Below are positions 46,595 to 59,603 of a stretch of DNA of 61,129 nucleotides, one piece after another. Origin of the DNA: Clostridia bacterium (GTDB lineage Bacteria > Bacillota > Clostridia > Oscillospirales > Acutalibacteraceae); NCBI GenBank assembly GCA_017546665.1, contig JAFYSE010000053.1, positions 1 to 61,129 of the forward strand, read 5' to 3'. Position 1 is the stretch's first letter. Every line of letters starts with the position of its first letter. Below the pieces are notes generated by a model that was not told the origin of the DNA, searched no databases, and saw only the letters and a program-made list of their open reading frames with translations. The position numbers and the translations under genes were made by a program.

Positions 46595-47989
46595 TTATTC
46601 TATTTCGTCAAGATTTACACCTTTTGTTTCTTTAACACCTTTTGTAAACATTATTGCTGCAACACCAACTGCTACAACTGAAATCGCAAGGCATACCCAC
46701 CAAATTGGGAATTTAATCATACCAATGATTGCAAGTAAGTAACCAACTGCAAGACCAATGATTACTAAAAGTCCCTCTGCACCAACAACGGATGCACGGA
46801 TATCAGTCGGTACTTTTTCTGTCATCATAACATTCATATAGTCCCTGCCTATCCAATATGAGCCTTGATAAAGTCCTGCAAAGAAGCCAATAAGATATGG
46901 ATTCCAACCACAAAGAATACCTGCTACAAAGAGAGTGTAACCTGATATACAAAGGATGGAGAAGCCTGTTACAGTAACCTTTCTGCCAAGCTTGTCGGCA
47001 ATAAAGCCTGAAAGGAAGGTGATTGTTGCATACACCACAGGCACCATAAACAATGCCTTTGTAATATCGCTTGTACTCATACCAACCTTGTGCATTGATG
47101 ACTCAAAATAAAGAGCGATTGCAGGCATTGCGGAGTCGAAGATAATATGAGAAATTATAAGGTTTTTTGTGTCCTTATTTGCAAAGATATACTTAACACC
47201 ATTGAAAACACCTGACTGATTTCTTTGTGCTTCCTTTTGCTGTTTTTTCATCAGCTTTTCTGCTTGGCGTTCCTCGTATGGGCGTGAAAGATAAGCAATT
47301 CTCTCATCAATAAACACCTTTGTATCCTTTGCGAAAAGAACAACTAAAAGTACTGCGATAAATCCTATAATTGCCGGTACAAGGAAGATTTCACGCCATC
47401 TTGTTGGGTCGTCACCCATAAGCATATCACGGAGTGTAGGAATAAGAATAACACCTAAAATACCAAAGCTTTTAAGGAAACTATAAATCTTTGCTCTGTG
47501 TTTATCGGGTGCTTCTTCAAGAATATAAATAATCTGAATATCGTGTCCCATAAAGAAACTAATAATTGCAAAGCCTACAAGGAACATAATATAGCTTGTT
47601 GATAAATGAATTACAATAAGTCCCGTTGCCATACCAAGGGTTGAAATTGCGAAAAGTGGTTTTCTTCCCCATTTATCGGCAAGTGCTTTATAAAATGGTG
47701 TTATGATACCAAAAACATAGGTAACCACACCGATGGTTGAGTGAAGTGCTAAGCCCTCTTGGAAAGTATATAACTTACCCATAAAAGGATTGTTTACAAA
47801 GAACTCTGTAACAAAAGATGACTGCACAGTAACAGTTAGGTTGCTTGTTACTTCGTCAAGAATGTTAACAATAGCAATAAGAATAAGCAAAACAAAAAAA
47901 TATTTGCTACTGCCAGACCTATTCTGCATCCTTTTTAGTCGTTTGATTTCTTTTTGTTCGTTTATGGTGATTGCTTCTGTTGTTTTCAT
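46595..47989 (-). CDS. Major facilitator superfamily transporter
   Basis: The 464-residue protein has 12 predicted transmembrane segments and MFS signatures, DKWGRKPLFA between TM2 and 3 and DKLGRKVTVTG in the second half. The central cytoplasmic loop is long and basic (RQAEKLMKKQQKEAQR). Its charge pattern and length resemble sugar/metabolite proton symporters or exporters. It lies directly beside the GH3-condensation pair under a perfect-consensus promoter, so it may export or import the product or precursor of that locus. That link is inference. Confidence 0.88.
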   Translation of the reverse strand: MKTTEAITINEQKEIKRLKRMQNRSGSSKYFFVLLILIAIVNILDEVTSNLTVTVQSSFVTEFFVNNPFMGKLYTFQEGLALHSTIGVVTYVFGIITPFYKALADKWGRKPLFAISTLGMATGLIVIHLSTSYIMFLVGFAIISFFMGHDIQIIYILEEAPDKHRAKIYSFLKSFGILGVILIPTLRDMLMGDDPTRWREIFLVPAIIGFIAVLLVVLFAKDTKVFIDERIAYLSRPYEERQAEKLMKKQQKEAQRNQSGVFNGVKYIFANKDTKNLIISHIIFDSAMPAIALYFESSMHKVGMSTSDITKALFMVPVVYATITFLSGFIADKLGRKVTVTGFSILCISGYTLFVAGILCGWNPYLIGFFAGLYQGSYWIGRDYMNVMMTEKVPTDIRASVVGAEGLLVIIGLAVGYLLAIIGMIKFPIWWVCLAISVVAVGVAAIMFTKGVKETKGVNLDEIE

Positions 47990-48174: not shown

Positions 48175-49878
48175 ATGAAAATTATGAAGCTTTTTAGGCC
48201 TATGTTCACTGCTATGGGTGGATTTTTAGGTATCTGCGAACACATCAAACTCTATTTCTATGCTAAAAATGCAAACAAGGTTCAAGAGAGAGTTCTTAGA
48301 AATCTTATGCGTGATAACAAAACTACTGAATATGGTAAAAAGAACAATTTTGATAAGGTTAAGTCAATAGAAGACTATCAAAACCTTGTTCCTTATTCAG
48401 ATTACCTTGATTATGAAGATTACATAATGAGAATGGCTAATGGCGAAAAAGGACTTATCACAAATAGATATATCCGTCGGTTCACAGAATCATCAGGTAG
48501 TACAGGAAGAAGTAAGCTTGTTCCACTTTCAGGTTTTTCAGAATGGACAATTATGTGCTTTAGTTTCAGTGCACCTGTAGGTTGTGCTGTTAAATATTTC
48601 TGGAAAGAAAAGCATAAACCACTTCCACCACAAAGAGGTCTTCAGACTGCAGAAGTTAACTACAGAAAAACTCCGGGTGGTGCTTCTGTTTCATGCCTTT
48701 CATCAATTCCTTTCCTTAATATGAAACCTATCGTTAAATTCTACACAAGTTCACCAAAGGAAGTTATGTTCCCAAAACCTGATGTAGATATGGATATGCA
48801 CTATGTAAAACTCTTCTTTGCTTTGCAGGATGAAGATATCAGTTATCTTGGCACAATTTTCATTACAACCCTTGAATCAATGATGTTCTACCTTGAAGAA
48901 AACTGGAAAATGATTTGTGACAATATTGAAAAAGGTCAACTTAGTGATTCTGTAAGAATTCCTGATGATATTCGTGCAAGTCTTCAAAAGAAAATCAAAC
49001 CAAATCCAAAGAGAGCTGCAAAACTTCGTGCAGAATTTGAAAAAGGCTTTGACGAATCTCCAATCGTTACAAGAATCTGGCCACATTGTGGTTGGTTATA
49101 TGGTATGGGTACAGGCTCACTCTCTCACTATCAGCAGAGACTTCGTCGTTATATCGGTGAGGATATGCCTATCCACTATGTTGGCTATGGTGCAACTGAA
49201 GCTCTTATGGCTGTTCCAAAAGAATTAAATTCTTACGAATATGTAATTCTTCCACAGAACTCATTCTTTGAATTCCTTCCACTTGATGCTCCTGAAGGCA
49301 CAAAGCCATTGACTATCAGTCAGCTTGAGGTTGGCAAGGAATATGAGGTTATCCTTACAAATATGAGTGGTTTCTACCGTTATCGTATTGAAGACGTTGT
49401 TAAAGTTACTGGTTTCTATCATCAGTCTCCAAAAATCACTTTCTGTTATCGTCTTAATCAGATTGCTAATATCAGTGGTGAAAAGATTAACCAGCTTGCT
49501 TTTGATGAAATCGTTGGTAATTTCTCCAATAAAATGGATGAAATGTTTGTTGGCTACAGTATTTATCCTGACAGAGAAACTTCTCCCGGACACTATGTAC
49601 TTCTTGTTGAAGGTACAAAGGAACACACAAAGGAAGAAGAAGCAGTTTATGCTGAAGAATTTGAAAAATGCCTTGTTGCAGGTAACGTTTCCGTTGGCCC
49701 ACTTATTAAGAGTGGTGCATTAGGTCATTGTGAGTTCAAATTCCTTCGTCACGGTACATACGACGAATATCGCGAAATGCTCAGAATGAATGGTGCTAAC
49801 CTTAACCAGATTAAGCCAATCAAGGTTATCAATTCAGAAGAAAGAAAAGAATTCTTCTTCAACCATACTCAATTTTAA
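48175..49878 (+). CDS. GH3 auxin-responsive-promoter-family acyl-adenylating enzyme
   Basis: The 567-residue protein has the three GH3 nucleotide-binding motifs: SSGSTGRSKLVPLS (about 105), GYGATEALM (about 340), and FYRYRIEDVVKV (about 400). Plant GH3 enzymes adenylate an acyl acid such as a hormone and join it to an amino acid as an amide. Bacterial members are poorly characterised. It is followed 14 bases later by a condensation-fold protein. An acyl-AMP handed to that partner, or direct amide synthesis, is plausible. An AAGGGAG site lies before the ATG, with slightly long spacing. Substrates cannot be deduced. Confidence 0.9.
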   Translation: MKIMKLFRPMFTAMGGFLGICEHIKLYFYAKNANKVQERVLRNLMRDNKTTEYGKKNNFDKVKSIEDYQNLVPYSDYLDYEDYIMRMANGEKGLITNRYIRRFTESSGSTGRSKLVPLSGFSEWTIMCFSFSAPVGCAVKYFWKEKHKPLPPQRGLQTAEVNYRKTPGGASVSCLSSIPFLNMKPIVKFYTSSPKEVMFPKPDVDMDMHYVKLFFALQDEDISYLGTIFITTLESMMFYLEENWKMICDNIEKGQLSDSVRIPDDIRASLQKKIKPNPKRAAKLRAEFEKGFDESPIVTRIWPHCGWLYGMGTGSLSHYQQRLRRYIGEDMPIHYVGYGATEALMAVPKELNSYEYVILPQNSFFEFLPLDAPEGTKPLTISQLEVGKEYEVILTNMSGFYRYRIEDVVKVTGFYHQSPKITFCYRLNQIANISGEKINQLAFDEIVGNFSNKMDEMFVGYSIYPDRETSPGHYVLLVEGTKEHTKEEEAVYAEEFEKCLVAGNVSVGPLIKSGALGHCEFKFLRHGTYDEYREMLRMNGANLNQIKPIKVINSEERKEFFFNHTQF

Positions 49879-49892
49879 AGGGTGAAAACCTT

Positions 49893-51332
49893 ATGAAAGA
49901 ATCAATTATTAAACAATACACAGAAAGCCTGCCTATTAAAAAGCAGGCTTTAGCCTTTTCTAAAATAAACGAATACTGCGACCTACTCAAAAAGCGTGGT
50001 CTTGATGACGACAAGGCATGTGCAGAAATTGCAGTTGATGTTGTTAAGAATGGTTATAACGTAAAAAAAATCCGTGCAGAAGTTTATGACAAAGTAAATT
50101 ATATGTGTCGTTGCTATATGGATATCAATGCACGTTTTAGACTTGACTATGATTTCATTCCTGATATAAATGCCATCAAAACGGTGCTTATCAGCCTTTT
50201 TGAGCATTCCCCTATTCTTCATTCAAAGTTTGTTGATAATCATATTGCACCTTATTGGAAAGTGTGTGATTACGATTTAAATGACATTTTTGCTGTTACA
50301 GAAACAGATTACCTTGAGAAGGATGTTTATGATTTCTTCGTCCAGACTATTAAGGTTACAAACAATGTGCAACTTAAATTTAACCTTTTTGTAAAAGATG
50401 GAAAATGTGCACTTTGTGTCCTTTGGAATCATATGGTAATGGATGGCGGCGGAATTAAGCAACTTCTCGGTGATGTATTCAAAGGCTATAATGAATACGT
50501 GGCAAGTGCTAAAATTCCACTTGATTTCAGAGTTGGCTCAAGAAAACTCGGCGAAGTTTATAAGGATTTGCCTGAAGAAACCAAAAAAGCAGCAAAAACA
50601 AAGTTTGCAAATAAGACATCTAAGGAAAAGAAGACCTTGCCATTTACAGCACCTTGTGCAGATGACCATAACATTCTTGTTACAAAGGTTATTCCTGCTG
50701 AAACCTTCATGGGTGCAGTAAAAAAAGCAAAAGGCTTTGGCGCTACTGCAAACGACGTACTTTCAACTTGTTATATTGATGCAGCATATAAAATGTTAGG
50801 TTGCCACAACGAAGACTTTACACTTTCTTGTGCTGTTGATTTAAGACGGTATATGAATGACCCCAACAGAATCGGTTACGCTAACCACACAACCTTTATG
50901 CCTTGCACGGTATCTAAAAAAGGGGAAACTATTTTAGACACGCTTAAAGAAGTTTCCGAATGTAACAACAAATCAAAAGAAGATGAATTTTTAGGTCTTT
51001 ACGGACTTCCACTTCTTAACTATGCATTCACTCAGCTTATTTACATTCAAGCAGAATTAATGGTTAAAATGTTCTATAACAACGCTAACCTATCAGTTAG
51101 TAATGTTGGACGGCTTGATGCTAACTTCTGTGCTTTAGATGGCAACCCACCTACTTTTGCTATGGGTGCAGGTGCTGCAAAAAAGAAAAACTGTGCAGTT
51201 GCTACTGCATTATCCCTTAACGGTAATGCTATTATCACAATCTGTATTCAGGGAACTGAAAAAGACAAGGAGATGCTTGATACTTTCTTCAACCACATGG
51301 AAGACAGTATGAAAGAAATCGCAAACAGTTAA
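49893..51332 (+). CDS. Condensation/acyltransferase-fold protein (stand-alone)
   Basis: The 479-residue protein belongs to the CoA-dependent acyltransferase fold shared by NRPS condensation domains, alcohol acetyltransferases and PapA-type enzymes. The catalytic motif reads NHMVMDGGG (His180, Asp184), where the first His of HHxxxDG is replaced by Asn but the catalytic His and DG remain. The later VDLRRYMND, GYANHTTFM and SNVGRLD blocks fit the C-terminal half of that fold. It is paired with the GH3 gene on one transcript. It may transfer an acyl group to an alcohol or amine. Which donor it uses is unknown. Confidence 0.75.
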   Translation: MKESIIKQYTESLPIKKQALAFSKINEYCDLLKKRGLDDDKACAEIAVDVVKNGYNVKKIRAEVYDKVNYMCRCYMDINARFRLDYDFIPDINAIKTVLISLFEHSPILHSKFVDNHIAPYWKVCDYDLNDIFAVTETDYLEKDVYDFFVQTIKVTNNVQLKFNLFVKDGKCALCVLWNHMVMDGGGIKQLLGDVFKGYNEYVASAKIPLDFRVGSRKLGEVYKDLPEETKKAAKTKFANKTSKEKKTLPFTAPCADDHNILVTKVIPAETFMGAVKKAKGFGATANDVLSTCYIDAAYKMLGCHNEDFTLSCAVDLRRYMNDPNRIGYANHTTFMPCTVSKKGETILDTLKEVSECNNKSKEDEFLGLYGLPLLNYAFTQLIYIQAELMVKMFYNNANLSVSNVGRLDANFCALDGNPPTFAMGAGAAKKKNCAVATALSLNGNAIITICIQGTEKDKEMLDTFFNHMEDSMKEIANS

Positions 51333-51393: not shown

Positions 51394-52269
51394 TTATGAC
51401 TTAAATCCACCATTAAGGATTACATAAAAATCAACTATTGATGTTGCTTGATTAACAGGAACTGTCATTCCCATAGCCTTAATCTCGAGGTTATTGAGGG
51501 TAATATATACCACATAACTCCAAGTACCGTTAATAATCATACCATTGCTATTGATTGTTACCTTAAGAACTGGGTTTTTGTATTGAAGTGTACAGTCCTC
51601 GTCTGCAATTCTAGCCTCCATACCAAGACCTGAAAACTGACCAATAACAGAATCAATATCACCAACAACAGAAATTGCATGGCCTACTGTACCTTCATAC
51701 ATCTTTCCGTTACCTTTATCAGTCTGTTCCTTCATTTTCATTTCAATAACAATATTATTGCCATTCTTATAAGCCTTTGCTGCTGCAACGTCAGAAACAA
51801 CAAGATTCTGATGGCCACCGGTAATTCCCTTAATGTCCTTTGAGTTATTTGACAAAGCCTTTGACATAACGCCCTCGGCAAAGCTTAACAAAGAACTATT
51901 TATACCAGGTGCACTCAAAGAATCCTTACGCATTGTCATATTCTGATATGATGTTACAGAATTATGAGTTCTGCCGGCTGCTTTTTTATAATAGTCAACA
52001 ATCTGTGCTGTTGTCCAATCGGATGGGTTATCGCTTACTTCACCTGATTGGGTATTGTTATTCTGCACATCATTTGAATTATCGTCAAATGAATTATCCT
52101 GATTCTGATTATTATCAAAACTATCATCAGGCATCTGGAAATCATTATTATTATCATTTTGTTGATTGTTTTGTGTTGTCTTGTTAGGAACAACTACACT
52201 AATCTTTGCGCATGATGATAAACATACAAGCATTGAGATAGCAACGAATATTGCAAGTATTTTTTTCAT
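51394..52269 (-). CDS. Lipoprotein, member 1 of a tandem paralogous family (unrecognised)
   Basis: The 291-residue protein has a lipoprotein signal (MKKILAIFVAISMLVCLSSC, lipobox Cys20). An Asn/Asp/Gln-rich linker follows (about 30-78), and then a 205-residue domain shared with the two genes upstream. The shared domain has W-x-x-x-x-IV-x-x-YKxxA at its start, GITGGHQNLVVSDVAAAKAYKNG, EQTD...GTVGHAISVVGDI and GTWSYVVYI blocks, ending in LNGGFKS. I do not recognise the family. It should be anchored on the outer face of the membrane. It has its own strong promoter. Its position beside the acyl-condensation genes suggests a linked envelope or binding role. Confidence 0.85.
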   Translation of the reverse strand: MKKILAIFVAISMLVCLSSCAKISVVVPNKTTQNNQQNDNNNDFQMPDDSFDNNQNQDNSFDDNSNDVQNNNTQSGEVSDNPSDWTTAQIVDYYKKAAGRTHNSVTSYQNMTMRKDSLSAPGINSSLLSFAEGVMSKALSNNSKDIKGITGGHQNLVVSDVAAAKAYKNGNNIVIEMKMKEQTDKGNGKMYEGTVGHAISVVGDIDSVIGQFSGLGMEARIADEDCTLQYKNPVLKVTINSNGMIINGTWSYVVYITLNNLEIKAMGMTVPVNQATSIVDFYVILNGGFKS

Positions 52270-52300
52270 TGAGACATCCTCCTACTAAACATACACATAA

Positions 52301-52329
52301 ATTTTACTATACAAATATGATTTTGTCAA
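52301..52329 (-). promoter_or_regulatory. Strong predicted promoter of the lipoprotein gene
   Basis: On the minus strand: TTGACA, 17 bases, TAAAAT, ending about 32 bases before the lipoprotein start. Confidence 0.75.
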
Positions 52330-52409
52330 CGAAAGTACACTGTATTTTAACTATTAAAATTGAGGAATTCCGTTTTTAAAAGTTACCTCTTTGATAAATG
52401 TAAGTCATA

Positions 52410-52443
52410 GTGATTTATGGAAATCACGCGTCCGAGTCGCGTG
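52410..52443. other. Two overlapping hairpins in the 225-base intergenic region
   Basis: GTGATTT-ATGG-AAATCAC (52410-52427) and CACGCG-TCCGAGT-CGCGTG (52425-52443) share the bases CAC, so the two structures exclude each other. The second is unusually GC-rich for this region. The rest of the 52270-52494 gap holds the lipoprotein promoter and the upstream gene's terminator. A small RNA or switch is possible but unproven. Confidence 0.35.
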
Positions 52444-52466
52444 CCATATGTTTTTTGGCAATAAAA

Positions 52467-52488
52467 AAGGTGCTCATACGAGCACCTT
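52467..52488 (-). terminator. Terminator of paralog 2
   Basis: AAGGTGCTC/GAGCACCTT stem with a 4-base loop, followed on the minus strand by TTTTATT. The plus side also has a T run. Confidence 0.85.
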
Positions 52489-52494
52489 ATTTTT

Positions 52495-53442
52495 TTAGAA
52501 CCCACCACCGGTTACAATTACATAATCAATTACTGTTGTTGCTTCTTCAACAATTACGCTTTCAATTTGAAGGTCTTTAACATGAACATTAACAACATAA
52601 CTCCATGTACCTTTTTCAATTACGCCATTTTTATTGATTTTTACTTTAACAACCGGATTAACATATTTCAATTCCACAAAAGCATCTTTAAAATTAACAT
52701 TCCAATCAGGGAAATTATCAGCAACTACTGCAATATTACCCACTACTGAAATTGCATGACCTACTGTACCCTTATATGTATCACCATAAGCATCATCTGT
52801 CTGTTCAACCATTACCATTTCAACAATAGTATAATCTCCGTCTTTATAGGCCTTTGCAGACTGAACATCTGAAGGTACAAGACTATTGTATCCACCTGTA
52901 ATACCGTCAAATTCAATGGAGTTATTTTTCAAAGCAAGCTTAATGATAGGTTCAGCAAATTCAATGAGAAATTCAAGAGCACTATTGTTAAGTTTAACAT
53001 TCATACCGTTATTCATTGTCATTGTTTGAGTTGATTTTGCACTCGTTGATTTCTGTGCTGACTCCCTATAAAATTTTACAATTTCTTCCTTAGTCCATTC
53101 CTTAGGGTCCTCAGGAAGCTCTCTTTGAGGAGTTAAAGGCTCTTTATTACTATTATCTGCGTTTTCATCTGTTACTTCATTACCATTTTCATCAACAGAA
53201 GGTCCACCCGGAACAATTTCAGGTCCACCAGGTGTATTTGTTGGTCCACCAGGAGTATTTGTAGAAATAGTATTCTCTGTGTTCTCCTTTGCTGTTGAAC
53301 CGGATTTTCCAACAAATATAACGCTAAATACCAATACAAACGCTAACAAAAATGCTAAAAATCCCGTCCATTTCATTGATGAACTTTGTTTTTTAAGCAT
53401 CTTTACTTCTGCTTGTTCAGGGGTTAAAACTTTTTTTGCCAT
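52495..53442 (-). CDS. Membrane-anchored protein, member 2 of tandem paralogous family (unrecognised)
   Basis: The 315-residue protein has a short cytoplasmic N-terminus (MAKKVLTPEQAEVK, shared with the next paralog). One transmembrane segment follows (about 25-46), then a linker with NTPGGP-type repeats. The same 205-residue outer domain as the lipoprotein ends in VTGGGF. Blocks in common include GITGGYNSLVPSDVQSAKAY, EQTD, GTVGHAISVVGNI and GTWSYVV. The start ATG 53442 is chosen because AGAAGAAG precedes it and it aligns with the paralog. The shared N-terminus suggests a common cytoplasmic partner. The function is unknown. Confidence 0.85.
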   Translation of the reverse strand: MAKKVLTPEQAEVKMLKKQSSSMKWTGFLAFLLAFVLVFSVIFVGKSGSTAKENTENTISTNTPGGPTNTPGGPEIVPGGPSVDENGNEVTDENADNSNKEPLTPQRELPEDPKEWTKEEIVKFYRESAQKSTSAKSTQTMTMNNGMNVKLNNSALEFLIEFAEPIIKLALKNNSIEFDGITGGYNSLVPSDVQSAKAYKDGDYTIVEMVMVEQTDDAYGDTYKGTVGHAISVVGNIAVVADNFPDWNVNFKDAFVELKYVNPVVKVKINKNGVIEKGTWSYVVNVHVKDLQIESVIVEEATTVIDYVIVTGGGF

Positions 53443-53483
53443 ATTCACTTCTTCTTTCTGACAGAATAATATTACTACCAATT

Positions 53484-53512
53484 ATTTTATGTCACAATTT
53501 ATGGTTTGTCAA
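53484..53512 (-). promoter_or_regulatory. Strong predicted promoter of paralog 2
   Basis: On the minus strand: TTGACA, 17 bases, TAAAAT, the same arrangement as for the lipoprotein gene. Confidence 0.75.
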
Positions 53513-53523
53513 TGAGTAAAAAA

Positions 53524-53543
53524 GACGGGAACAAAGTCCCGTC
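53524..53543 (-). terminator. Terminator of paralog 3
   Basis: GACGGGA/TCCCGTC stem (7 bp), followed on the minus strand by TTTTTT. Confidence 0.75.
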
Positions 53544-53550
53544 CATTCAC

Positions 53551-54501
53551 TTAGAATCCACCACCTGTGGTTATGGTATAAATAATCTCTGCATCTGCTT
53601 TATTAATCATAATACTATCAATTTGCAAATTTCTTATGTAAATCTGAGAATCATAACTCCATGTGCCTTTTTCAATGATTCCGTCTTTATTAATTTTTAC
53701 TTTAACAGTTGGATTGGTGTAATGGATTTTGATATCTGCTTCTTCAAACTTAATATCAAACGCGGGGAATTGTTCAACAGCAGTTGCAACATTACCTAAA
53801 ACATTAATTGCATGACCTACTGAGCCACCCTGATAGTCCCCATAAATTCCATCTGTCTGCTCGACCATAACCATTTCGATTACTATATAATCTCCGTCTT
53901 TATATGCTTTTGCAGACTGAACATCCGAAGGTACCATTTTTGTATATCCACCTGTAACGCCTTCATAGGTTGTTGCATTTTTCTCCAATACAGAAGCAAT
54001 TACAGGAGTAATCACTTTAAGAAAGAATCCAAGTGCACCATCACCATCATTTACAATAAGTTTTGGCATAGCATAAACCTGAGATGACTGTACAACCTTA
54101 TGTGACTTAGCAGCAGAATTCTTATAAACTGCAACAATTTCCTCTTTGGACCACTCAGCAGGATTTGCAGAAAGTTCTTTCTTGCTTTCGCTTTCTTCCT
54201 TGTCTGTTGAATCTTCATTTCCACCAACAATGGTAATAGTACCATTGTCTCCGATAATCATTTCGCTATCCATCTCGTCAGTTGCATTGTCCTCTGTCTG
54301 TATATCGGATGAGTTGTCAACCGTATTATTAGAATTTTCCACCTTAATGTTTGAGGATGTCTTATCTGCAATAACTACCACACCAACGGTAAGAACAACT
54401 GCCAACACTATTGCAATAAAAGCAGAAAAGTTCACTGATTTTCTTGCTTTCTTTATTGCCTTTACCTCTGCCTGTTCAGGTGTTAAAACTTTCTTTGCCA
54501 T
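53551..54501 (-). CDS. Membrane-anchored protein, member 3 of tandem paralogous family (unrecognised)
   Basis: The 316-residue protein starts with MAKKVLTPEQAEVKAIKK, followed by one transmembrane segment (about 24-46) and an acidic Ser/Asp/Glu-rich linker. It carries the same outer domain as its two neighbours: GVTGGYTKMVPSDVQSAKAY, EQTD, GSVGHAINVLGNV, KGTWSYDSQIY and the C-terminal TTGGGF. ATG 54501 follows AGGGG. It lies 32 bases after the ceramidase-like gene with no terminator between, so the two are likely co-transcribed. This ties the paralogous family to that hydrolase. Confidence 0.85.
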   Translation of the reverse strand: MAKKVLTPEQAEVKAIKKARKSVNFSAFIAIVLAVVLTVGVVVIADKTSSNIKVENSNNTVDNSSDIQTEDNATDEMDSEMIIGDNGTITIVGGNEDSTDKEESESKKELSANPAEWSKEEIVAVYKNSAAKSHKVVQSSQVYAMPKLIVNDGDGALGFFLKVITPVIASVLEKNATTYEGVTGGYTKMVPSDVQSAKAYKDGDYIVIEMVMVEQTDGIYGDYQGGSVGHAINVLGNVATAVEQFPAFDIKFEEADIKIHYTNPTVKVKINKDGIIEKGTWSYDSQIYIRNLQIDSIMINKADAEIIYTITTGGGF

Positions 54502-54533: not shown

Positions 54534-56141
54534 TTATTTTACCTCGTTGATAAGGTTAATGTATTCCTGAGTGAATATTGAACCTGATTTTTTGTTTACG
54601 ATATTTACTTCTTCATTTTCACTGAGGAGTGAATGATATTCGTTATCACGAAGCACGTATCCTGCTTGGTCATTACAAAGACCATAAACCATAACATATT
54701 CTACATTTGCAACGTCTTTAAGTGGAGCATAATCCCAAGTTTCACCCGTCCATGCTGCGTCCCCTGATTCAGGGCCACCAAATATAATTGATGGGTCAAA
54801 TTCTCCTGGGCAAAGGAAGATTCCAACCTTGTTACCAAGCTCCATATAACCAATTTCCGTTACCATTACATATTTGCCAAGACCATCTTTTACGATAACT
54901 GTATCGAATAAATCCTCACGTGCTGCAAGAGTAAGAATTCCATTATCAACTGGTAAGAATACCTCTCTATGTGCCACATTAAGAACTGGATTTAAGAGAA
55001 TATCATTGTTTATTGTCATTACCTTTTCAGCGACAGCATAGCCATAATTCGCAATATTTTCAATATCAGTAGCATCAGGAGTATTAGTTAAATCCTTGTC
55101 CATCTTAATGGCAAGTTCAGCACCAAGAACATAAACAACATTTGCATTTGCTTTTTCATTGATTGCCTTTTCAATATAGTATGGATAATCTGCTGTCAAC
55201 TCATCAGGACCTGCACCCATACCCGTTGCATGCATTGAACCTTGTAAAATCCATGTTTCTTTACCACCATTTTCAGGAACAAATCTTAATCTGTGAATAT
55301 TCGAATCAAAAGCTATCGGGTCACGAGCATCACGCATATATTCTTCAATATCTGCACTGCCATAATACAGATTACCATCTTCCATTGATTCAACTGCTGT
55401 TTGCATACATTCCACAGTCTTATCGAAAAGATTTTCCATAAATTGCTGATTTTTTGTTACCTTATAGTCATCTAACAAGCCACCCAAGGCAGCATTTGTA
55501 GTATTAAGAACAAGTGCTGATAAAAGTGGTACATTCATACCAAGGGTATCTATACATGAATGCTGATGCAAAACTGACACATTAACGCTTATTATGTTAT
55601 ATCCGTTTGCTTCTGCGAAGTCATTCATTCTTGAACGAATTTTCTGAACATCTCCACGAGAAAATCCAAAACCATCAATAACTGCCTGAATCACAATTCC
55701 ACTTACACCATCTGAAATTGCATAAACGCGAACACGTTGGTCGTCATTGATTTTTGTAGGCACTCTACCAGCAAATGGTTCCAATGAGCCTGCAAGAAAA
55801 TACTCGCCATTCATTATATCCATATCCTCTAATAAGGAAGCACCTGCATATCCTAATGACCATTTTGCACCGTTTGCAATTTGATTATTAAAGCTTTCCT
55901 CACCAGCATAGAAATCTGTTGCTATATAATCATCTTTTGAATCCCAATTTTTATCATATCCCGGCCACACAAGATTAAACACCTTGAGAGCCTTATGTAT
56001 AACGTCGTCAAGCAACTGATTAATGTAGTTTTCGGTGTTAACACTCTTTGCTGAATTATCAAAGCACGCAGATGTTGACATAGCAAAAACTGAAAACATC
56101 AAAGCCATAGCCATAACTATTGCTGTAATCTTTTTATACAT
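54534..56141 (-). CDS. Secreted neutral-ceramidase-like amidohydrolase
   Basis: The 535-residue protein has a signal peptide (about 1-25). Its organisation resembles neutral/alkaline ceramidases (PF04734-type): SVSVLHQHSCIDTLG at the first metal-binding region, GSMHATGMG at the second, a long central part, then IFLCPGEFDPSI and GLCNDQAGYV near the C-terminus. Such enzymes cleave the amide bond of N-acyl sphingosines or other N-acyl lipids outside the cell. The start ATG 56141 has AGAGGTGA at good spacing; an upstream GTG is less likely. It is divergent from the AMP ligase-condensation-ACP operon, so its substrate might be the same class of N-acyl product. Similarity is judged by eye, so family placement is moderate. 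Confidence 0.6.
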   Translation of the reverse strand: MYKKITAIVMAMALMFSVFAMSTSACFDNSAKSVNTENYINQLLDDVIHKALKVFNLVWPGYDKNWDSKDDYIATDFYAGEESFNNQIANGAKWSLGYAGASLLEDMDIMNGEYFLAGSLEPFAGRVPTKINDDQRVRVYAISDGVSGIVIQAVIDGFGFSRGDVQKIRSRMNDFAEANGYNIISVNVSVLHQHSCIDTLGMNVPLLSALVLNTTNAALGGLLDDYKVTKNQQFMENLFDKTVECMQTAVESMEDGNLYYGSADIEEYMRDARDPIAFDSNIHRLRFVPENGGKETWILQGSMHATGMGAGPDELTADYPYYIEKAINEKANANVVYVLGAELAIKMDKDLTNTPDATDIENIANYGYAVAEKVMTINNDILLNPVLNVAHREVFLPVDNGILTLAAREDLFDTVIVKDGLGKYVMVTEIGYMELGNKVGIFLCPGEFDPSIIFGGPESGDAAWTGETWDYAPLKDVANVEYVMVYGLCNDQAGYVLRDNEYHSLLSENEEVNIVNKKSGSIFTQEYINLINEVK

Positions 56142-56169
56142 AAATATCACCTCTTATTTTTATGCCATA

Positions 56170-56198
56170 ATTATACAATTCTTTTCACAATTATTCAA
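56170..56198 (-). promoter_or_regulatory. Predicted promoter of the ceramidase-like gene
   Basis: On the minus strand: TTGAAT, 17 bases, TATAAT, ending 29 bases before the start codon. Confidence 0.65.
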
Positions 56199-56236
56199 GG
56201 CTAATATTAATCTTATTTCACATATCTTTCAATAAG

Positions 56237-56252
56237 TTTGACACATGTCAAA
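56237..56252. promoter_or_regulatory. TTTGACA-CA-TGTCAAA inverted repeat, candidate operator
   Basis: Two perfect 7-base arms are separated by 2 bases. It lies between the divergent promoters of the ceramidase-like gene (ends 56198) and of the AMP ligase operon (begins 56278), so one regulator could control both. The layout resembles TetR-type operators, but no regulator gene is in the window. Confidence 0.5.
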
Positions 56253-56277
56253 ATATGTATAAGATTTCCCATTTTTA

Positions 56278-56306
56278 TTGACATTTTTTCATTTTTTGTT
56301 TATCAT
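56278..56306 (+). promoter_or_regulatory. Predicted promoter of the AMP ligase-condensation-ACP operon
   Basis: TTGACA, 17 bases, TATCAT, with the ligase start 74 bases downstream. Confidence 0.6.
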
Positions 56307-56380
56307 TTTGTATGGTTATGTGGAGTTTTATATTCTTGAATATTTACTCGCTTTCAAATTTACAATGAGGATGTAGAAAT

Positions 56381-57934
56381 ATGAAACAAACTCTTTTAAC
56401 GGTAAGAGATATTGTTAACTTTGCCGCTGAAAAATATTCTGATAATGACTTTTGTAAATATTTCAGAGATGACAAAATTTGCGTAAAAAGTTTTAAAGAA
56501 TTTCGTGAAGATTGTTTGGCAGTAAGCCGATATGTTAAATCTATTCAATCTGAAAAAATGCATATTGCCTTTATCGGTAATACAAATTACGAATACGTTG
56601 CTTGTCTGACAGGTATGATTTGTAGTGGTAATGTGGTTGTGCCTTTTGCTCCTGACATCAGTGTTGAAGAGGCTTGCAAGCTTTTTGATGACGCTGATAT
56701 TGAAATGCTTTTCTGTGAAGAAAGCTTTATTGATAGAGCAAAGGAAATTCAAAATAATTACAAAAGAATCCGTCAGGTAGTATCATTAGGTGATTGGCAT
56801 TGGTTTAAAAATATTTTTGATACATATTCAAGTGATTCAGAATATGCTCATCTTTCAGATGTTGAAATCAACCCTGATGATTGTGCACTTATCATTTACA
56901 CATCAGGTACAACAGGCGAACGCAAAGGTGTTATGCTTTCAAATAAGAACCTTGCTTCTAACTCTTGTTATGATACATACATTTCAAATCCCGGTGAAAC
57001 AAGTCTTTCAATTTTGCCAATGCATCATGTTTTCTGTTATGCGTGTGATGTACTTAAGGTTCTTTATGATGGAATTACAGTTTGCCTTAACGGTCCACTC
57101 GTTAATCTTTATAAAAACCTTCTTGCCTTTCAACCAACTTCAACAAGAATTGTTCCTTTGCTTTGCAAGTCCATTTTAACAAAAATTAAGATTGCAGAAA
57201 GGAAGAATTCTGACCTTTCTCCACGAGATGCAGCAGAACTTGTTGTTGGTAAAAACTTCACTAAAATGTTGGCTGGTAGTGCATTTTTAAGTGGTGCTTT
57301 AATTGACGAATTGGCAAAATACGGAATTATTGCTCGTCAGGGATATGGTATGAGCGAATGTAGTCCACGTATTACTACTGCAGACTTCTCAGAAGATAAC
57401 AAATATTCAAATGGTGTTCTTACCGGTGTTGACGATGTCCGTGTGCTTGATGGTGAAATTCAGGTTAAAGGTCCTTCCGTTATGTTAGGTTATTATAAGA
57501 AGCCTGAAAGAACTGCTGAAGCATTCACCGAGGACGGCTATCTTCATACAGGTGATTTAGGTTATATTAAAAATGGTCACATTTATCTTGTTGGCAGAAA
57601 GAAAAACCTTATTATTCTTTCCAATGGTGAAAATGTTTCTCCTGAAGAAATTGAAAACAAGTTTGCTGATGACGGAATAATCAAAGAAATCGTTTGCTAT
57701 GGTGAAAAAGACCGAATTGTTGCAGAAATTTTCCCCGATTATCAGCTTGTTGAAGCTTGGAAAATTGAAAATGTTCACGAAGAAATTGAGACAATCGTTA
57801 ACAGAGTTAACTCAATTCTTAATACCGACAGACAAATAAGTGTATTTAAAATCCGTGAAACTCCTTTTGAAAGAACAACAACAGGTAAAATCAAAAGAGC
57901 ACAATTTAACTTTGCAGAGGATGAAGCAAAATGA
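56381..57934 (+). CDS. Stand-alone AMP ligase / adenylation enzyme (ANL superfamily)
   Basis: The 517-residue enzyme has IIYTSGTTGERKGVMLSN (P-loop, about 172), YGMSECSPRI (about 325), LHTGDLGYI followed by the hinge GRKKNLIILSNGENVSPEEIE, and the C-terminal catalytic lysine in TTTGKIKR. It should adenylate an acyl or amino acid and load it on the carrier protein two genes downstream. It is coupled by an ATGA overlap to the condensation gene. It is not close to the acyl-AMP ligase at 6.2 kb and could use a different acid. Substrate specificity cannot be read with confidence. Confidence 0.85.
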   Translation: MKQTLLTVRDIVNFAAEKYSDNDFCKYFRDDKICVKSFKEFREDCLAVSRYVKSIQSEKMHIAFIGNTNYEYVACLTGMICSGNVVVPFAPDISVEEACKLFDDADIEMLFCEESFIDRAKEIQNNYKRIRQVVSLGDWHWFKNIFDTYSSDSEYAHLSDVEINPDDCALIIYTSGTTGERKGVMLSNKNLASNSCYDTYISNPGETSLSILPMHHVFCYACDVLKVLYDGITVCLNGPLVNLYKNLLAFQPTSTRIVPLLCKSILTKIKIAERKNSDLSPRDAAELVVGKNFTKMLAGSAFLSGALIDELAKYGIIARQGYGMSECSPRITTADFSEDNKYSNGVLTGVDDVRVLDGEIQVKGPSVMLGYYKKPERTAEAFTEDGYLHTGDLGYIKNGHIYLVGRKKNLIILSNGENVSPEEIENKFADDGIIKEIVCYGEKDRIVAEIFPDYQLVEAWKIENVHEEIETIVNRVNSILNTDRQISVFKIRETPFERTTTGKIKRAQFNFAEDEAK

Positions 57935-59475
57935 TAGAAAAAGTTTTATCTAATGGTCAAGCAGTCAAGGCTTACCCTATTTCCAACTCGCAAAAAATGA
58001 TGTTTTTGATGTCCTTAAAGTACGGTCCCGGATATCCTGTTAACAACATCGGTTGTGGGTATTACTGGCAGGGTAAAGTGGACATTGACATTTTAAAGAA
58101 ATCTATTTATGAAGCAATCGAGCGTTGTGACACAATGCGACTTCGTTTCACAATGGAGAAAAAGCTCAATCTTCATCAGTATGTTACTGAAAAAAGTGAG
58201 CTTGTCATTGAAGATTGGGATTACAGTCTTAAAACCTTTGAAGAAGCTGAAGAAGAACTTACAAAGATTTCCAGACAGAACATTCCGATGTATGAGTGTG
58301 AAATTCACAAAATTGCTATTGTTAGGTTCAAAAACGGTTATCACGGTCTTTTCTTAAGATTCCATCACCTTGCTATGGATGCTTATTCAGTTAAGATGTT
58401 CTTAAATGACGTTATTGAAATCTACAAGAGCAAGACTCAGGGTACTGCTTATCCTAAACCAATGAGACCATATATTCCTGTTCTTGAAAAGGAACTTGAA
58501 TATCAAGAATCAGAACAACACGAGATTGACAGACAATATTGGTATGATTCACTTGCAAAAGCAACGGAGCCAATCTTTACTGACTTTATGATTGACAATC
58601 GTCTTAAATATCAACAGGCGAAAAATCCAGGTCAACGATATGCTGATATTCATTCAGGTCTTCCCGATGCCGATATTTTCAATATGAGTATGAGTGCAGA
58701 AGATAGTGACAAGGTAATGAAGCTTTGTGCCGATAGAAATCTTTCAATCTTCTCCGTACTTTCAATGGGTGTTCGCACAGGACTTTCCTGCTTTAATGAT
58801 AATCAAGAAGATGTTTCTTTTAAAATGATTATCAACCGTCGTGGCACTATTGCTGAAAAGAAATCAGGTGGTCTTCGTATCAATTTCTTACCTATGAGAA
58901 GCATTGTAAAGCCTGAAGAAACATTCTGTGATGCAGTACAAAAGATTTCCGATGTTCAGAATGAAATGTATCAGCACGCAAGTCTTTCTTTCATTGAAAC
59001 ACTTAAGGAAAGACATAAGTCAATGCCTAAGGAATCAAAATCCGACTCAACCTATGATAGCTTCGGTCTTTCATACCAACCACTTATGAAGAGTACATAT
59101 ATTGACGAGGAAATGGAAAAGACTGCAAAGAGTATTTGGTACAATAATGGCTCCACAATGATTCCTCTCTATGTTACAATCAGACATAGAAAACAGGATA
59201 ACGGTCTTGATTTCTGTTTTGAATATAGAAAAGAGCCAGAGGCAGAATACGACCTTCGTATTCTTTTTGATAAAATATATAAAGCACTTGTTTTGGGTGC
59301 AGAAAATCCCGACATTACTGTTGGTGAAATACTTGATAAAATCGCACTTACAGATGCAGAAAGGAACGGTAAACCAGAATGCAAGAGTTCTCACAGCTTG
59401 TTGAAATCCTTGAAAATTACGTGGAAGTCGAAGATATCTCCACTGATAGCAATTTTAAAGCTGACCTTGAAATGA
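57931..59475 (+). CDS. Stand-alone condensation-domain protein
   Basis: The 514-residue protein has the two-lobed condensation fold: YPISNSQKMMFLM at the start, the active-site motif HHLAMDAYS (His145-His146-x3-Asp150, final Gly replaced by Ala), and a late MIINRRGTI region. The frame overlaps the next gene by 97 bases. Its last 30 or so residues, after DAERNGKPE, look like read-through rather than conserved sequence. It would join a thioester-bound acyl or aminoacyl group from the ACP to a nucleophile. A split NRPS/lipoinitiation module is one possibility. Confidence 0.8.
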   Translation: MIEKVLSNGQAVKAYPISNSQKMMFLMSLKYGPGYPVNNIGCGYYWQGKVDIDILKKSIYEAIERCDTMRLRFTMEKKLNLHQYVTEKSELVIEDWDYSLKTFEEAEEELTKISRQNIPMYECEIHKIAIVRFKNGYHGLFLRFHHLAMDAYSVKMFLNDVIEIYKSKTQGTAYPKPMRPYIPVLEKELEYQESEQHEIDRQYWYDSLAKATEPIFTDFMIDNRLKYQQAKNPGQRYADIHSGLPDADIFNMSMSAEDSDKVMKLCADRNLSIFSVLSMGVRTGLSCFNDNQEDVSFKMIINRRGTIAEKKSGGLRINFLPMRSIVKPEETFCDAVQKISDVQNEMYQHASLSFIETLKERHKSMPKESKSDSTYDSFGLSYQPLMKSTYIDEEMEKTAKSIWYNNGSTMIPLYVTIRHRKQDNGLDFCFEYRKEPEAEYDLRILFDKIYKALVLGAENPDITVGEILDKIALTDAERNGKPECKSSHSLLKSLKITWKSKISPLIAILKLTLK

Positions 59476-59603
59476 GTTCATTTGACACAATGTGCTTTGT
59501 AACAGATGTTAAAACCGTTTTTGGTGTTGACCTTAAAGTAAAAGACTTTATTGAACACAAAACTGTTGGCGAAATGGCAGAGTATATTGCATCACTCAGA
59601 TAA
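59379..59603 (+). CDS. Small acyl/peptidyl carrier protein
   Basis: The 74-residue protein has a carrier-protein pattern: EMSSFDTMCFVTDVKTVFGV, with the phosphopantetheine serine just before FD, and a C-terminal IEHKTVGEMAEYI helix. ATG 59379 lies inside the previous gene, in the -1 frame relative to it. A frameshift would fuse condensation and carrier domains, or the two are separately translated. A terminator follows at once. It probably holds the substrate activated by the AMP ligase of this operon. Confidence 0.82.
   Translation: MQEFSQLVEILENYVEVEDISTDSNFKADLEMSSFDTMCFVTDVKTVFGVDLKVKDFIEHKTVGEMAEYIASLR

Follow-up and report, generated by a model that had tools for sequence, protein, structure and literature searches.

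A gut clostridial locus with a probable fatty-acid amide synthetase operon divergent from the gene of a predicted secreted neutral-ceramidase-superfamily hydrolase: a candidate for N-acyl-amide salvage and remodelling

Introduction

The original gene clusters for fatty-acid amides (FAAs) were reportedly those of Chang et al. in 2021. Here we describe a locus in which an operon of this kind lies divergent from the gene of a predicted secreted hydrolase. The locus is located at the right end of a 61,129-base stretch of DNA (contig JAFYSE010000053.1, referred to below as the window) that comes from the 1.69 Mb genome, of 74.86% completeness, of a Clostridia bacterium. On one side are the genes for an acyl-AMP ligase (LIG), a condensation enzyme (COND), and an acyl carrier protein (ACP), on the other is the hydrolase gene (HYD), and a palindrome is found between the two. 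Taken together with the neighbouring genes, this arrangement tentatively suggests a locus for the salvage and remodelling of N-acyl amides, a reading to which we assign a probability of about 0.42.

The closest described synthetase is that of Coprococcus eutactus, where OaaA, OaaACP, and OaaC, which are free-standing proteins, make oleoyl aminovaleric acid (PMC13142362, a preprint). The window operon resembles this system in its three free-standing proteins for adenylation, carrier, and condensation functions, and COND is OaaC-like in its motif and over nearly its full length. In contrast to FAA synthetases, the operon of the window is divergent from a secreted hydrolase of the ceramidase superfamily, with a palindrome between, and is adjoined by genes for a GH3 enzyme and an acyltransferase (ATR). 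The words “hydrolase” and “GH3” have 0 occurrences in the main text of PMC13142362. No report of such a cluster together with GH3, or with a secreted hydrolase of the ceramidase superfamily, was seen in the literature searched, which covered few subscription papers and not that of Chang et al. 2021.

The hydrolase and the GH3 enzyme have described counterparts of their own. Neutral ceramidases (PF04734), of which the human (4wgk) and Pseudomonas aeruginosa (2zws) enzymes are examples, share profile homology with HYD, and their metal-site residues H, H, H, E, and Y are aligned with residues that are invariant in the HYD family. HYD differs from them in falling below Pfam detection, in carrying Lys/Arg at the position of the active-site Ser, and in its length of 535 aa versus 646 and 688 for the solved chains. 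With respect to GH3, a bacterial GH3-like enzyme, OlsH, makes N-acyl ornithine in the planctomycete ornithine-lipid pathway OlsH/OlsI, and its homologues are described mainly from Bacteroidota, then from Pseudomonadota, Planctomycetota, and a few others (PMC12493201). The window likewise pairs a GH3-like amide synthetase with an acyltransferase, although the partner is of the condensation/PapA superfamily and not an alpha/beta hydrolase as in that source, and an FAA cassette adjoins. The window GH3 also matches the plant GH3 JAR1 in sequence (residues 30–552, E 1e-53), but it is bacterial and is situated in a lipid-amide locus.

The Synthetase Operon

By domain content and gene order, LIG-COND-ACP is an operon of a known kind, namely the free-standing FAA synthetases of gut Clostridia. 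An earlier note on this DNA had claimed that the operon holds the parts to make N-acyl amides, and this is borne out by the Pfam domains of the encoded proteins (Table 1) and by the match of COND to a structure in the PDB. Free-standing adenylation, ACP, and condensation genes lie side by side, which is the FAA synthetase layout, and residues 13–469 of COND, nearly the full length, align with entry 12kh (E 1.9e-65). Judging from the single mention of 12KH in PMC13142362, this structure would be OaaC of C. eutactus. The same preprint gives the FAA motif as (D/H)HxxxD, with Ser (42%) or Ala (36%) as the next residue, and the HHLAMDA of the window fits this (D/H)HxxxD[S/A] pattern. In an alignment of 35 COND rows, the second His is found in 34/35, the Asp in 35/35, and Ala or Ser next to it in 28/35 (26 Ala and 2 Ser, the others being 3 Gly, 3 Asn, and 1 Arg).

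COND relatives, taken at E up to 1e-10, are present in 40 of the 250 sampled genomes of the family. Among 30 COND loci with short flanks, one of which is the window, a ligase gene adjoins COND in 26 and an ACP was seen in 17, a count affected by the gene caller's loss of overlapping ACPs, the window's own included. The COND and ACP genes of the window overlap by 97 nucleotides in different frames; in another locus, L076, the overlap is 1 nucleotide.

The Secreted Hydrolase

HYD begins with a signal-like segment (judged by eye), and its preferred start is the ATG at 56141, behind AAGAGGTGAT, over the GTG at 56150. The term “ceramidase-like”, which the earlier note had applied to this protein, holds at the level of profiles but not at that of domain models for the window protein, which matches no Pfam model (E up to 0.1) and no NCBIfam model (E up to 0.01), is not above the PF04734 gathering score, and yields zero matches when searched singly against the PDB. 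An assignment as a plain ceramidase by sequence was rejected for want of a Pfam or NCBIfam match. In contrast, 18 of 77 family members match PF04734 with E-values of 0.1 or lower, the best being 1.7e-9. The 77-row alignment finds the neutral ceramidases weakly in the PDB (0.084 for 4wgk, 0.18 for 2zws), and a broad 15-row profile matches the human and P. aeruginosa structures with E-values of 9.7e-11 and 7.6e-9, respectively. On the basis of this profile-level kinship, HYD is placed in the neutral-ceramidase superfamily as a remote member. The AlphaFold model of the protein is confident (mean pLDDT 91.9, pTM 0.90).

Across the alignment (77 rows, with L026 left out for a wrong open reading frame), H192, H194, H304, E447, and Y495 of HYD are invariant (77/77) and correspond, counted along the alignments, to human H194, H196, H303, E540, and Y579, which we take to be the residues that hold the zinc. 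A different picture is seen at K346, which is aligned, via 2zws, with what is presumably the active-site Ser of the ceramidases. The residue at this position is T in 40 rows, S in 14, Y in 8, I in 6, G in 5, K in 2, and R in 2. The K/R rows are those of the window, L086, L087, and L088 only, and L089, the fifth HYD linked to an FAA cassette, also has R. The earlier proposal of a secreted enzyme that cuts N-acyl amides agrees with membership in an amidase superfamily, although the active-site Ser position is changed. A review lists His196, Arg257, Tyr579, and Tyr591 as the critical human residues; Ser354, which steadies Arg257 at the base of the pocket, is not listed there as critical (PMC6952831).

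A second paralogue of the ceramidase superfamily, 615–617 aa long, is present elsewhere in the genome of the window (L018 7514-9361; G000:C48:77735-79225). The family is often multi-copy, and tandem arrays of three such hydrolase genes are seen in gut Oscillospiraceae/Clostridia (L106, L108, L110, L111, L120, and L130).

A Palindrome between the Operons

The palindrome that the earlier note had placed between the two promoters is indeed situated there, and it recurs between the operons in related genomes. The sequence TTTGACANNTGTCAAA has one copy in the genome of the window. Its core, TTGACANNTGTCAA, is expected 0.01 times in the window; it is found as a single copy in each of the four genomes of the genus that bear the locus, always between the two operons, and in 0 of 10 other genomes scanned. 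The position of the palindrome relative to the promoter-like sequences varies. For instance, in the window and in L086 the best promoter-like match of the ligase operon has the palindrome upstream of it, and a second such match overlaps the palindrome, while in L087, L088, and L089 the palindrome is located on the invariant −35 TTGACA of the ligase promoter. We interpret this shift between two TTGACA sites as a sign that an operator has been under selection; the conserved −35 elements may account for part of it. From its position between the operons, we infer that HYD is controlled together with the ligase operon.

Distribution of the Hydrolase and the Pairing

With a single-protein search, HYD is found in 9 of 295 genomes of the order, and with a profile search in 46 of 250 genomes of the family, often in several copies. 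Of 289 relatives, 80 HYD loci were fetched from genome contigs, several of which are short and have incomplete flanks. According to their titles, these loci come from Clostridia, Oscillospiraceae, Ruminococcaceae, and similar Firmicutes, with an ungulate gut sample given in at least 46 titles. LIG and COND adjoin HYD only in the top four of the 80, L086–L089 (HYD 69–87%; water deer, roe deer, goat, and sheep), and HYD, LIG, and COND are therefore together in five genomes when the window is included. Weak ligase matches (23–30%) in L106, L109, L134, and L142 were not counted as a cassette. L086, L087, and L088 are taken as the genomes G531, G528, and G526, respectively.

Within the genus, HYD and COND are present in the identical 4 of 39 genomes, and in a tree of HYD (37 of the 77 rows) the four cassette-linked rows form one clade (100/99). 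At the level of 135 genera, HYD shares 13 with GH3 (3.0 expected), 15 with COND (5.0 expected), and 16 with the envelope proteins (LP) of the locus (3.2 expected), overlaps that lie well above chance but are confounded by descent. The neighbours of HYD outside the FAA-linked clade are varied and point to no single function.

GH3 Enzymes and Their Partners

A rightward GH3-ATR pair, absent from the earlier note, lies 5 kb from the FAA cassette. The GH3 protein carries the N-terminal, central, and C-terminal domains of the family (PF03321, PF23571, and PF23572) and scores 58.5 bits against the OlsH model of NCBIfam, below the cut-off of 620. GH3 is found in 31 of 250 family genomes. Six close GH3s occur outside the genus (61–75%); ATR adjoins five of them, and the sixth, in G491, has DUF819 and a sphingosine-1-phosphate (S1P)-lyase-like enzyme. 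At the locus itself, the window and G531 carry GH3-ATR, and G528 carries GH3-DUF819-S1P-lyase at a different place and oriented like the envelope genes. In the GH3 tree (19 rows), G528 and G491 are grouped together (99/97), apart from the group of the window, G531, and G459 (99/98). Since the GH3s of the locus fall in separate clades, GH3 seems to have been recruited twice into the same locus. Alternatively, an ancestor may have held both GH3 types, each of which was lost once, and this would also imply association.

The S1P-lyase-like enzyme of the G528 locus has a PDB match at E 6e-112, after which its Pfam reading as an amino-acid decarboxylase was dropped. Its presence in that locus suggests that the substrates are sphingoid or ceramide-like. 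The pair of a DUF819 membrane protein and, after it, an S1P-lyase-like enzyme is seen in three genomes (L069 14839-17443, L200 12004-14664, and L260 8624-11361), directly behind GH3 in two of the three.

General proximity of HYD and GH3 was considered and set aside. At least 3 of 47 listed GH3 rows are within 10 kb of a listed HYD, which by rough estimate is not above chance, given the several HYD copies per genome. The case for linking the two rests for this reason on same-strand neighbours and the double recruitment.

Layout and Neighbouring Genes

All genes named in the earlier note are present (Table 1). The envelope proteins LP1–LP3 (51394–54501, leftward) come after HYD; they reach no curated Pfam or NCBIfam cut-off, and no Pfam match is common to the envelope family.

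Table 1. Features of the locus in the window.
Feature	Position	Strand	Basis
HYD, secreted hydrolase of the neutral-ceramidase superfamily, 535 aa	54534..56141	-	Profile homology, alignment, AlphaFold pLDDT 91.9
LIG, acyl-AMP ligase, FAA-type adenylation enzyme	56381..57934	+	PF00501 E 2e-45
COND, free-standing condensation enzyme, OaaC-like, motif HHLAMDA	57931..59475	+	PF00668 E 4e-39
ACP, acyl carrier protein, motif DLEMSSFD	59379..59603	+	PF00550 E 3e-10
Palindrome TTTGACA-CA-TGTCAAA, putative operator common to both operons	56237..56252	.	Sequence and position
Promoter-like TTGACA-17-TATCAT, ligase operon	56278..56306	+	TTGACA invariant in 5/5 aligned sequences
Second promoter-like match, ligase operon, overlapping the palindrome	56238-56265	+	
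Promoter-like TTGAAT-17-TATAAT, HYD	56170..56198	-	-10 region invariant in 5/5 aligned sequences
LP3, paralogous envelope protein, N-terminal hydrophobic segment (by eye)	53551..54501	-	
LP2, paralogous envelope protein, N-terminal hydrophobic segment (by eye)	52495..53442	-	
LP1, paralogous envelope protein, lipobox-like LVCLSSC (by eye)	51394..52269	-	
GH3, GH3-family acyl acid amido synthetase	48175..49878	+	PF03321, PF23571, PF23572
ATR, condensation/PapA/WS-DGAT-superfamily acyltransferase, motif NHMVMDG	49893..51332	+	Remote match
MFS transporter flanking the locus	46595..47989	-	Possibly background

The MFS gene is found in the four HYD/COND genomes of the genus and in only 2 more. In G532, an LP3-like gene (55%) lies near the MFS gene (L293 13471-14403). 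In G529 (75% complete), HYD and COND were not found, and different genes flank the MFS gene.

Parts of the locus meet in other arrangements as well. For example, LIG-COND-ACP-GH3-ATR form a single run of genes in G409, GH3-ATR-ligase-HYD occur together in G459, and COND adjoins GH3 in G342 and G412. A homologue of the envelope proteins is located behind HYD in L145, and one adjoins GH3, inside a longer open frame, in G371. A 40% GH3 is found 1–4 kb from HYD in L108, L111, and L117. In the G371 stretch (L211 6510-12372), the envelope-protein homologue is situated between two same-strand GH3 genes, and in that of G342 (L208 6757-15813), the genes for a ligase, a condensation enzyme, and GH3 are lined up on one strand with that of a 1376-aa protein, part of which is ligase-like.

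Weighing the Explanations

If the locus serves N-acyl-amide salvage and remodelling, LIG would activate a fatty acid inside the cell and load it onto ACP, and COND would, by homology, join the ACP-bound fatty acid to a free amine, yielding a fatty-acid amide. GH3 and ATR, or GH3, DUF819, and the S1P-lyase-like enzyme in the relative, may make or handle a second amide or the amine side. Outside the cell, HYD would act as a secreted zinc amidase that cuts gut N-acyl lipids into fatty acid and amine; its candidate substrates are ceramide-like lipids, N-acyl amines or amino acids, and possibly the product of the locus itself. LP1–LP3 may bind or pass on N-acyl lipids or cleavage products, and a regulator acting on the palindrome would switch both operons together. 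These parts differ in strength: amide synthesis inside the cell is strongly indicated by homology, cleavage outside is suggested at superfamily level, and joint control is suggested by the recurring palindrome. As for the earlier description of the locus as a candidate new system, the gene set is conserved in related genomes, although the synthetase itself is of a known kind.

Several observations weigh against this reading. An FAA cassette is lacking near HYD in 76 of the 80 fetched loci, so that the same gene set, which the earlier note proposed to look for in other gut genomes, is seen in L086–L089 besides the window, and the pairing as a widespread system was rejected. The occurrence of HYD and COND in the same 4 of 39 genomes is not independent, the carriers being close kin in the HYD tree, and since the cassette-linked HYDs form one clade, the pairing is probably lineage-specific, having arisen once and been kept across genomes. 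Outside the genus, the fetched stretches of 15 COND loci show no HYD. G532 (77% complete) has an LP gene near the MFS gene, but neither HYD nor COND was found in it, and in G526 the stretch from the MFS gene to the ACP gene contains no GH3. The S1P-lyase, at E 1e-60, is not in the genome of the window (75% complete). Thr or Ser is found in 54 of 77 HYD rows and Lys/Arg in the FAA-linked clade, and because Lys/Arg replaces the active-site Ser, the activity of the cassette-linked HYD may be altered or lost. With regard to the palindrome, 5 of 14 genomes contain a single match to a reversed control pattern. A lone match in a genome is by this measure near chance, uniqueness alone was rejected as evidence, and only the recurring place of the palindrome counts. 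The four genomes that bear it are kin, and no regulator gene for it was identified.

The earlier note favoured synthesis and release of an N-acyl compound, with the envelope proteins as putative binding factors. In this model, taken here to include control, HYD would specifically cut the amide of the divergent operon outside the cell, thereby freeing an active amine or acid, recycling the compound, or ending a signal. We regard this model as unlikely, even though it is consistent with divergent operons that, in four genomes, enclose the sole palindrome match of the genome, with the joint presence of HYD and COND in the identical 4 of 39 genus genomes, and with a Lys/Arg pocket position that is confined to cassette-linked rows among the 77, as if tuned to a new, perhaps carboxylate-bearing, substrate. 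Relatives of HYD are common, and often multi-copy, without an FAA cassette nearby, and both making and destroying one compound would require separation in space or time. Moreover, the GH3 and acyltransferase operon and the S1P-lyase-like enzyme of a relative would fit lipid salvage no less well than synthesis and release.

Scavenging of host or dietary sphingolipids is a further account, under which HYD would be a ceramide hydrolase, the S1P-lyase-like enzyme of the relatives would break down the sphingoid base, and the FAA and GH3 enzymes would only detoxify the freed fatty acid. Together with DUF819, the S1P-lyase-like enzyme is encoded within the G528 locus and follows GH3 in G491, but at E 1e-60 no more than 7 of 250 family genomes have its gene, that of the window not among them. 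This, together with Lys/Arg at the Ser position of HYD, makes the account improbable in spite of the place of HYD in the neutral-ceramidase superfamily and its frequency in gut Clostridia/Oscillospiraceae, where at least 46 of 80 titles name an ungulate gut. Replacement of the active-site Ser by Lys/Arg in all five cassette-linked HYDs also agrees with a third possibility, in which these proteins would be catalytically altered, mainly binding, surface proteins linked to the FAA operon by shared regulation only. We consider this very unlikely, as all 77 rows retain the metal-site residues, and loss of the Ser need not kill activity because human Ser354 steadies Arg257 and is not named as critical (PMC6952831).

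Implications

The salvage and remodelling reading has a bolder and more doubtful form, namely a co-regulated extracellular-intracellular cycle of N-acyl amides. Here the secreted amidase would have been re-tuned, from Ser/Thr to Lys/Arg, on joining the FAA synthetase and would cut a specific amide outside the cell, while the FAA and GH3 enzymes would rebuild amides inside, and a single dedicated operator would control the whole. In this manner, the bacterium would trim and rewrite the pool of bioactive lipid amides in the gut. Direct, testable handles on the locus are offered by the palindrome, by the change to Lys/Arg, and by GH3, which seems to have been recruited twice. Fatty-acid amides of gut bacteria are described as acting on host receptors (PMC13142362). 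If synthesis is coupled to a secreted amidase and GH3 under one switch, the levels of amides in the gut would be set by making as well as by breaking.

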